From a virus: DNA of 27,804 nt. The notes under the pieces are model-generated. The model saw only the letters and a program-made list of their open reading frames with translations, had not been told where the DNA came from and ran no database searches. The stretch lies in IMG/VR virus record IMGVR_UViG_3300010392_000362, positions 1-27,804 of that record; one strand, written 5' to 3'. Each line of letters starts with the position of its first letter. Position 1 is the first letter of the stretch. Below, in pieces: positions 22,589 through 25,280 of the stretch. Position numbers and translations under genes: made by a program.

Positions 22589-22931
22589 GGGGGTGAACGG
22601 TTTTTGACAATCTGATTGAAATAAGAACTACAGCACCGGGTGATGACCTACATCAACCTTAGCCGACAACGCTGAGTTAGCAATGGCTGCCTAACTAGGT
22701 AAGTAATGCACATCATGTTATTAGTATGCTTGTAAATAACTAAGATGTAAAAGGAAGCAGATTGCGGTTTTAGTAATGTACCCTAAACATTGCAACCAAT
22801 AGAGCCTTTATGATTTTGTGGCCATGGAATATCAAAATCTGATTTTGGAAGTTTAAATAAACTTATCCTAAGCTGTAAGAAATGTTTTTATGAATACTTA
22901 TTGGACGTGGGTTCGAATCCCACCACCTCCA
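22589..22931 (+). ncRNA. ssrA: Phage-encoded tmRNA (ssrA)
   Basis: A 343-nt transfer-messenger RNA for ribosome rescue and tagging. The 7-bp acceptor stem pairs GGGGGTG (22589-22595) with CACCTCC (22924-22930), with the G3-U70 wobble that alanyl-tRNA synthetase needs, and discriminator A22931. The T arm is GTGGG-TTCGAAT-CCCAC (22907-22923). Near the 5' end GGTTTTTGACA matches the tmRNA D-like consensus. AATAAG (22620-22625) pairs with CTTATT (22897-22902) as helix H2. A PK1-like hairpin GGTGATG/CATC-ACC (22639-22658) precedes the tag frame, which reads ADNAELAMAA and TAA (22662-22694); the stop lies in an H5-like stem AGTTAG/CTAACT. The 3' CCA is not encoded (CAA follows). The first one or two tag codons are uncertain. 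SmpB would come from the host. Confidence 0.93.
22662..22694 (+). other. tmRNA tag peptide reading frame (ADNAELAMAA)
   Basis: GCC GAC AAC GCT GAG TTA and GCA ATG GCT GCC then TAA. Most bacterial tags end ALAA; this one ends AMAA, with LA just before. The frame is open from 22647, so the resume codon might be one or two codons upstream (TTA 22659 or ACC 22656). Confidence 0.75.
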
Positions 22932-22935
22932 CAAA

Positions 22936-23009
22936 GGGGAATTAGCTCAGCTGGCTAGAGCGCCTGCCTTGCACGCAGGAGGTCATCGGTTCGACTCCGA
23001 TATTCTCCA
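22936..23009 (+). tRNA. tRNA-Ala (anticodon TGC)
   Basis: A complete 74-nt cloverleaf: acceptor GGGGAAT (22936-22942) with ATTCTCC (23002-23008) including a G3-U70 wobble, D arm AGCTCAGCTGGCTAGAGC, anticodon stem CCTGC/GCAGG around loop CTTGCAC (anticodon TGC, reading GCN), and T arm ATCGG-TTCGACT-CCGAT. CCA is not encoded (CAA follows the discriminator A). It starts four bases after the tmRNA, so the two are probably one precursor. Confidence 0.95.
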
Positions 23010-23041
23010 CAATAATAAAAATAAAAATAGTTAAATAAGTA

Positions 23042-23405: not shown

Positions 23406-25280
23406 ATGGCAGTAAACATTGAAAAGAAATACCAGAAACTAACAGACACAGAGCATGTATTGTTAAGGCCTGGTATGTATGTTGGATCTATTAAGCCACA
23501 TACTGAAGAAGTATTTTTACCAATGAAAGGTAAAGATCAATTTCAACTTACTGAAGTAACTTATAATCCAGGCTTCTTAAAACTCTTTGATGAAATCGTT
23601 TCCAACTCAGTAGATGAACATAAAAGAAATACTAAATTAAATAAAGTTAAGGTAAACATTGATATGTCTACTGGCCAAATATCAATTTGGGACAACGGAG
23701 GAATACCTGTAAAGATTCATAAAGAGTATGATGAGTGGGTACCTGAAATGATTTTTTCAAACTTAAAGGCTGGTAGTAATTTTGATGATACTGAAGATAG
23801 GGTCGTTGTTGGAACAAATGGTGTAGGTAGTACACTAACAAATATATTTAGTAAAGAATTCACTATTGAAACTTGTGATGGTAAAAAACAATTTGTTCAG
23901 ACTTTTAAAAATAATATGTCTGAGCGCTCTAAGGCTAAAATTACAAATAAGAAAACTGCATTTACAAAAATAACATATCTTACTGATTTTAAAAGATTTG
24001 ATTTAAAAGGTATTGATAAGAATCATTATTTAATGATTACTAAAAGACTTATTGATATTGCAGCATGTAATCCTACCCTTAAAATATTCTTAAATGATAA
24101 ACCTATTGCATTTAGAACTTTTAAAGATTATGCAAGTCGTTATGTAACTCCAGTATTTTATGATCAATCAGAACATTGGAAAATTGGAATAGGACATTCA
24201 ACGACAGGCTTTAAAGCAATATCATTTGTTAATTCAGTTGAAACTAAAGACGGCGGTACTCATGTTAATAATATAGACTGGCAAATTACATCTTATCTTA
24301 GGGATAAAATTAAAAGGAAATATAGAGTAGACGTAAAGCCTTCTGAATTAAGACAGCATTTATATTTGTTTATTAACTGTACTGTTATTAATCCAGCGTT
24401 CTCTTCTCAAACAAAGGAAAAATTAATTACTGCTCCTAAGGATTTTGGTACAAGCCATGTTTTAAGTGAAAAAGTGTTGAGGCAAGTTTTAAATTCTGAA
24501 ATCATACAATCAGTATTAGATTGGATTGAAAGAAAAAAAGATGCTGATGAAAGAGCAAAACTTAGAAAATTAAATAAAGGTTTAGATAAAACTAAAGTTC
24601 TTAAATTAATTGATGCAAAGAAAAGAGGTGATAGAGAAAAATGTACACTTGCTATATTTGAAGGCGATTCTGCATCCTCTGCATTTAGAAGATATAGAGA
24701 GCCACAGTACCAAGGAGCATTTCCATTAAGAGGTAAATTTATAAATGTTAGAGAATTAACGGCATCCAAGGTTGTGCAGAATAAAGAGGTACAATCTATG
24801 ATGGCTGCTATGGGTTTAAAGATCGGACATGAACCTAAAGATCTAAGATATGGTAAAATACTTTTGTATACCGATGCAGATGTAGACGGTAATTCTATTG
24901 CAGCACTACTGATTAATTTCTTAGGTAAATACTGGCCAGAATTATTTAGCGAAGGTAGAGTACTTAAAGTAGAAACACCTCTGATGGTTGCAAAGAAAGG
25001 TAAAGAATCTTTAAACTTTTATTCAGATAATGATTATCAAGAATGGGAATCTAAACAGAGAAATTTAAATTCTTGGTCAATCGAATATAAGAAAGGTTTG
25101 GCTGCATTGGAAGATGCAGAATATAAAGAGATCATTAGAAGCCCGAGAACTTTTACTCTTACTAAAGACAATGGATTTAATAATACATTAGATATCTGGT
25201 TTTCTAAAGATTCTACACCGCGTAAAGGAAAGATACTTGGGGAGACTGTAATAATTAAAAACAACAAATCATTATTTTAA
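23406..25280 (+). CDS. 39: Type II topoisomerase large subunit (gp39-like, ATPase plus TOPRIM)
   Basis: A 624-residue subunit with the GHKL ATPase, transducer and TOPRIM domains in one chain. Visible: LRPGMYVGS near residue 20, the N-box DEIVSNSVDEH (about 62-72), ISIWDNGGIPV (about 96-106), the ATP-lid GTNGVGS (about 139-145), then TOPRIM EGDSA at 419-423 with E419 the metal ligand and TDADVDG at 489-495 with D490, D492 and D494. It relaxes and decatenates phage DNA and aids replication start in T4. In T4 itself the C-terminal part is split off as gp60; here gp39 and gp60 functions are in one gene. The stop is directly abutted by the gp52-like ATG. Confidence 0.92.
   Translation: MAVNIEKKYQKLTDTEHVLLRPGMYVGSIKPHTEEVFLPMKGKDQFQLTEVTYNPGFLKLFDEIVSNSVDEHKRNTKLNKVKVNIDMSTGQISIWDNGGIPVKIHKEYDEWVPEMIFSNLKAGSNFDDTEDRVVVGTNGVGSTLTNIFSKEFTIETCDGKKQFVQTFKNNMSERSKAKITNKKTAFTKITYLTDFKRFDLKGIDKNHYLMITKRLIDIAACNPTLKIFLNDKPIAFRTFKDYASRYVTPVFYDQSEHWKIGIGHSTTGFKAISFVNSVETKDGGTHVNNIDWQITSYLRDKIKRKYRVDVKPSELRQHLYLFINCTVINPAFSSQTKEKLITAPKDFGTSHVLSEKVLRQVLNSEIIQSVLDWIERKKDADERAKLRKLNKGLDKTKVLKLIDAKKRGDREKCTLAIFEGDSASSAFRRYREPQYQGAFPLRGKFINVRELTASKVVQNKEVQSMMAAMGLKIGHEPKDLRYGKILLYTDADVDGNSIAALLINFLGKYWPELFSEGRVLKVETPLMVAKKGKESLNFYSDNDYQEWESKQRNLNSWSIEYKKGLAALEDAEYKEIIRSPRTFTLTKDNGFNNTLDIWFSKDSTPRKGKILGETVIIKNNKSLF

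Follow-up and report, generated by a model that had tools for sequence, protein, structure and literature searches.

Organization of the locus

The window, i.e. the whole stretch of DNA analysed, is a 27,804-base IMG/VR virus contig with T4-like genes for a terminase, a clamp loader and two topoisomerase II subunits. The terminase is closest to that of the huge phage LR756500 (50%), followed by those of Sphingomonas phage PAU and Tenacibaculum phages (about 35%). Because these relatives point there, the hosts of the phage are most likely Bacteroidota bacteria. A one-piece tmRNA (ssrA) gene is located on the plus strand at 22589-22934, in the same place as in related contigs. ARAGORN calls a tmRNA at 22589-22932 (+) with the tag DNAELAMAA*, and Rfam model RF00023 spans 22589-22934 over its whole length (1-374) with 76.2 bits (gathering 47) and E=3.6e-28. 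At the level of sequence the gene is thereby confirmed as a complete one-piece tmRNA, and the covariance-model check proposed with the sequence-only reading, which had claimed a phage-encoded tmRNA in a T4-like phage, gave a significant match.

All features of the gene lie on the plus strand. The 5' strand of the acceptor stem, GGGGGUG (22589-22595), holds G3 of the alanine identity pair G3-U70, which is invariant across 14 aligned sequences. The 3' strand, CACCUCC, is followed by the discriminator base A73 at position 22931, where the sequence-only reading had placed the end of the gene (22924-22931 together); CAA comes next, so that CCA is not encoded. The T arm, GUGGG-UUCGAAU-CCCAC, occupies 22907-22923. 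The 5' strand of helix H2 (22608-22634) is paired with its 3' strand at about 22872-22903 in the RNAalifold consensus, with pairs kept despite changes on both sides. The place expected for PK1, from H2 to the resume codon, is taken up only by a hairpin, here called H (22638-22655; GGGUGAUGACCUACAUC followed by A), and a short linker. The motif UAGCC (22660-22664) stands just 5' of the resume codon and matches the UAG(UC) found ahead of the resume codon in Escherichia coli tmRNA (PMC4236655). The tag frame (22665-22694) reads GAC AAC GCT GAG TTA GCA ATG GCT GCC TAA and specifies (A)DNAELAMAA, the leading alanine coming from Ala-tmRNA or from the GCC preceding GAC. The stop codon is mostly inside the loop of an H5-like hairpin, GCCU-AACU-AGGU (22689-22700), seen in the sequence and in the consensus fold. 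The acceptor stem, G3-U70, the T arm, H2 and the stop-codon hairpin are conserved in relatives. The acceptor stem with G3-U70, T arm, H2 and tag ADNAELAMAA followed by TAA, all listed in the sequence-only reading, are thus present. Its pre-tag hairpin is present too, as H, but is not an ordinary tmRNA feature, since it replaces PK1.

One covarying helix lies 3' of the tag, followed by a very variable stretch in the PK2-PK4 region. Within the post-tag region (about 22755-22850) the sequence type switches abruptly between tmRNAs that are otherwise 80-90% identical, which suggests a swapping of pseudoknot modules. The single-sequence fold of the tmRNA, computed without pseudoknots, was no better than that of shuffled sequences (z -0.75).

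Directly 3' of the tmRNA is a tRNA-Ala(UGC) gene (22936-23010, plus strand; ARAGORN, RF00005 with 69.4 bits), which likewise has G3-U70 and no encoded CCA. It is the one tRNA gene of the window; in the relatives L020 and L082, 22-24 tRNA genes are clustered beside the tmRNA. SmpB (PF01668) was not found in 15 related contigs, including ones of 181 kb and 462 kb, which are fragments and possibly incomplete; the controls were positive. A phage-encoded SmpB was set aside on this basis, and because none was found in the 15 contigs the phage tmRNA probably uses SmpB of the host. A glutamine riboswitch like that of phage Melnitz was also sought, with no Rfam match in the window.

Conservation of the tmRNA and its tag

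Relatives were collected via the adjoining topoisomerase gene (23406-25280), which yielded 27 related contigs. A tmRNA is present in 24 of them, mostly at the same site; the earlier statement that tmRNAs are uncommon in T4-like phages is therefore wrong within this clade. The gene is absent from the site in L016, L022 and L028. In L016, with a topoisomerase 90% identical, both flanking genes are present with no tmRNA between them. Because of these three contigs the tmRNA is, by comparison of the relatives, a common but dispensable module. Another relative, L021 (topoisomerase 76% identical to that of the window), carries on its contig at 26663-27070 a different tmRNA (L039), which lacks hairpin H and whose longer tag ends in ...NAQVALAA.

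The tmRNA is conserved over 70-100% identity, and in an alignment of 14 distinct tmRNAs 14 pairs are kept through changes on both sides. The tags among relatives include DNAELAMAA, DNAEYAMAA, GNTELAMAA, GNTSYAMAA, GETTLAMAA, GNTKLAMAA and GDTSLAIAA. The ARAGORN tag VHGRAIKNH... of L006 is a mis-call, the sequence reading DNAEYAMAA. Across 14 distinct tag ends, codon positions 1 and 2 of the last four codons (A-M/I-A-A) are invariant and third positions vary. As the variation in these codons is almost confined to third positions, the tag is, on this codon pattern, translated and selected.

For comparison, bacterial tmRNAs were sampled by Rfam search and their tags called by ARAGORN. Tags ending in MAA were found in 20 of 69 Bacteroidota tmRNAs (ANDYSYAMAA, GDYNYAMAA and DNSYSYRMAA are examples), versus 0 of 84 in three other phyla (0/26, 0/28, 0/30). 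The huge phage LR756500 has its own tmRNA, with the tag GNNAEMRMAA. The ending AMAA had previously been called unusual; the Bacteroidota survey corrects this and rules out AMAA as a phage-specific tag. Because AMAA and RMAA are a habit of Bacteroidota and the relatives of the phage point to such a host, the tag of the window is by this survey host-like, and unexceptional for the likely host. Its AMAA ending is accordingly a sign of a Bacteroidota host and of breakdown by the route which that host uses itself, rather than of an altered fate.

The hairpin in the place of PK1

Hairpin H has the stem UGAUG/CAUCA and the loop ACCUA. The 17-mer GGGUGAUGACCUACAUC has 68 exact matches in IMG/VR, versus one for the same 17-mer reversed. 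The matches lie in one-piece tmRNAs of the kind found in the window, in permuted two-piece phage tmRNAs (RF04321 matches, with tags such as ANNSDYTAYSYALAA), and in 5' leaders, where a Shine-Dalgarno sequence and a start codon follow immediately; a few are coding or in other non-coding sequence. In the tmRNAs 10-15 nt separate the end of H from the resume codon. In leaders it stands mostly 13-19 nt before the start codon, in many unrelated phages; L258, with ATG only 7 nt from H, is an exception. Among named isolates, BLAST located a leader-type H in Psychrobacillus phage Perkons (42388-42408, ahead of ORF99). Two stem variants of H sought in named phages gave no match, and when the tmRNA was compared with named phages by BLAST, just the T arm and short chance matches came back.

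Evidence for pairing in H was taken from scans with free bases; an alignment pre-selected for pairing (100% paired) was not counted. With one stem pair free per scan, the non-coding changes among the matches listed either are compensatory or yield a wobble pair (A-U to G-C in L250, L258 and L264, U-A to C-G in L338, G-C to G-U in L366), and nearly all other pair combinations among these matches are in apparently coding sequences. With three pairs free (GGGTNNNGACCTACNNNAGAAA), 16 of 25 distinct matches pair at all three positions, representing eight different stems, where about 5% ((6/16)^3) would be expected to do so. In all 16 an ATG follows the stem at a distance of 13-19 nt, and in most of them a purine-rich, Shine-Dalgarno-like stretch lies in between. 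In four further matches the stem forms in a register that gives a six-base loop; three of these precede scaffold-like structural genes. The pairings GGGU/ACCU and GAUG/CAUC can both be drawn in H, but only GAUG/CAUC covaries; the competing GGGU/ACCU pairing could possibly let H act as a switch or fold into a very compact pseudoknot.

H is absent from all 70 Bacteroidota tmRNAs and from 88 other bacterial tmRNA loci examined, and none of 43 bacterial or archaeal contig matches to H was recognised as a tmRNA, which rules out H as an ordinary bacterial PK1. A covariance model found H in no more than 3 of 200 Bacillota genomes, and one of these three was the Veillonella among the earlier matches, so H is largely a phage element. 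The Veillonella magna match precedes a citrate-lyase/malonate-decarboxylase acyl-carrier-like gene. No credible Rfam match to H was obtained in two leader or non-coding contexts, nor any Rfam leader or riboswitch family at H in the other contexts searched, and H was accordingly rejected as a known Rfam element. No paper with the H sequence was found in a search mostly outside subscription journals, and a description under another name is possible.

Comparison with known tmRNAs

The gene shares with Bacteroidota-type bacterial tmRNA (RF00023) the acceptor stem with G3-U70, the T arm, H2, the resume motif, a tag ending in xMAA and an H5-like stop hairpin. It differs in having H for PK1, in its highly variable downstream pseudoknot region and in being phage-encoded. 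A tmRNA is reported in 402 of 18,146 phage genomes (about 2.3%; PMC9004378), among them permuted two-piece forms in methylophage Melnitz and pelagiphage Mosig (PMC9004378). These are likewise ssrA genes of marine T4-like phages, but theirs are permuted and two-piece, whereas that of the window is one-piece; the permuted phage tmRNAs in IMG/VR have the same H before the tag. Phage tmRNAs are also known in mycobacteriophages (Bxz1/Wildcat) and Bacillus phage G (PMC4131195) and in huge phages, some of which also encode SmpB (PMC7162821), a gene not found in the 15 contigs searched here. These last are full-length phage tmRNAs, as in the window, in phages with different hosts; the tag of LR756500 is a similar MAA tag. 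The tmRNA itself is thus a member of a known phage kind, and the replacement of PK1 by a recurrent phage leader hairpin looks new.

Interpretation

The reading preferred here, with a probability of about 0.8, is that of a functional one-piece tmRNA of a T4-like phage, likely Bacteroidota-infecting, which performs normal rescue with H replacing PK1. Ribosome rescue was also suggested in the sequence-only reading, and as an inferred function it is the best reading of the gene. A host enzyme would charge the phage tmRNA with alanine through G3-U70; together with host SmpB the tmRNA would enter stalled ribosomes, where the host-style tag A-DNAELAMAA would be added to the nascent chain, and the tagged chain would pass to host proteases of the ClpXP/ClpAP type. 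In this way the phage tmRNA may add to the tmRNA supply of the host at a time when ribosomes stall in numbers on phage mRNAs and on degraded host mRNAs.

The tmRNA could instead be a decoy or competitor that sequesters host SmpB or sits on stalled ribosomes, shifting quality control in favour of the phage. The lack of a phage SmpB in the 15 contigs would suit such a role, as would the TLD-only tmRNA of mycobacteriophage DS6A, which resembles tmRNA inhibitors and perhaps titrates SmpB (PMC4131195). However, the gene of the window is full length, unlike that of DS6A, and its tag is of the host type and under coding selection, whereas a decoy needs no tag; this explanation is considered improbable. 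More improbable still is that the tag is a phage innovation, redirecting proteins to a different protease or allowing escape from degradation. The penultimate region does depart from ALAA, a common form in other phyla, but AMAA/RMAA is frequent in Bacteroidota (20/69) and the last A-M-A-A (M or I) is kept in relatives, which is what a degron belonging to the host would predict. Redirection to another protease fate, also raised in the sequence-only reading, has no positive evidence in its favour, the tag being host-like. To the same very low degree the gene may be what is left of a bacterial ssrA that was acquired recently and is selectively neutral: it is present or absent between the same neighbours, as L016 attests with both flanking genes and no tmRNA, but the covariation, the codon pattern of the tag and the conservation over 70-100% identity all speak against neutrality.

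Phage tmRNAs are known but almost unstudied, and under the preferred reading of ordinary rescue the host-matched degron argues that phages keep a tmRNA for that function and not for escape from proteolysis. The use of the same H in mRNA leaders suggests that H does something at the ribosome, and we infer that it acts at translation start or resumption. It would assist the ribosome in engaging the start or resume site or in keeping hold of it, and may do so by holding the mRNA near the platform or by keeping the start region open. Tagging by E. coli tmRNA is not lost when its PK1 is cut down to a hairpin (PMC4236655), so H can be accommodated in the place of PK1. That H (GGGU-NNNG-ACCNA-CNNN-R) represents a so far undescribed phage RNA family acting at the ribosome is proposed tentatively, at a little below even odds. 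If true, phages have built a translation-start element into a rescue RNA in the place of PK1, and a shared ribosome or factor contact would be directly testable. By linking phage mRNA leaders and tmRNA, H provides a simple portable sequence for probing the job of PK1, and it also offers a way to ask how phages favour their own translation.

Additional elements in phages with H

Some gut phages carry two or three copies of H, chiefly before one family of small proteins (MTKREF...). These paralogues are about 110-135 aa long and have a helix-turn-helix-like C-terminal part with ..QKASALLRQ..; several occur per genome, and most of their genes are preceded by H with a different stem each time. The contigs concerned include L346, L250, L338, L456, L458 and L462. 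The six-base-loop sister leader (ACCUAC) is found in L460, L476, L477 and L479, three of which have it before scaffold or minor structural genes with products starting ...NLQLFADGG.... In L048/L091 and L062 a second conserved stretch (GGGGCAGCAATCCTCGTCGCAAC...GACTAACCAATAATGTCTT) with no obvious ORF follows H, and the two together may be a longer non-coding RNA. In L062 there is in addition a type-P1 twister-like match about 1.3 kb away. L064, L103 and L105 contain a conserved intergenic repeat, GCATAGCTAGAGYGGWGTGACAGNCCRCTCTATGGTGTGCTTAGC, between small ORFs, which looks like a structured RNA or terminator common to these phages.
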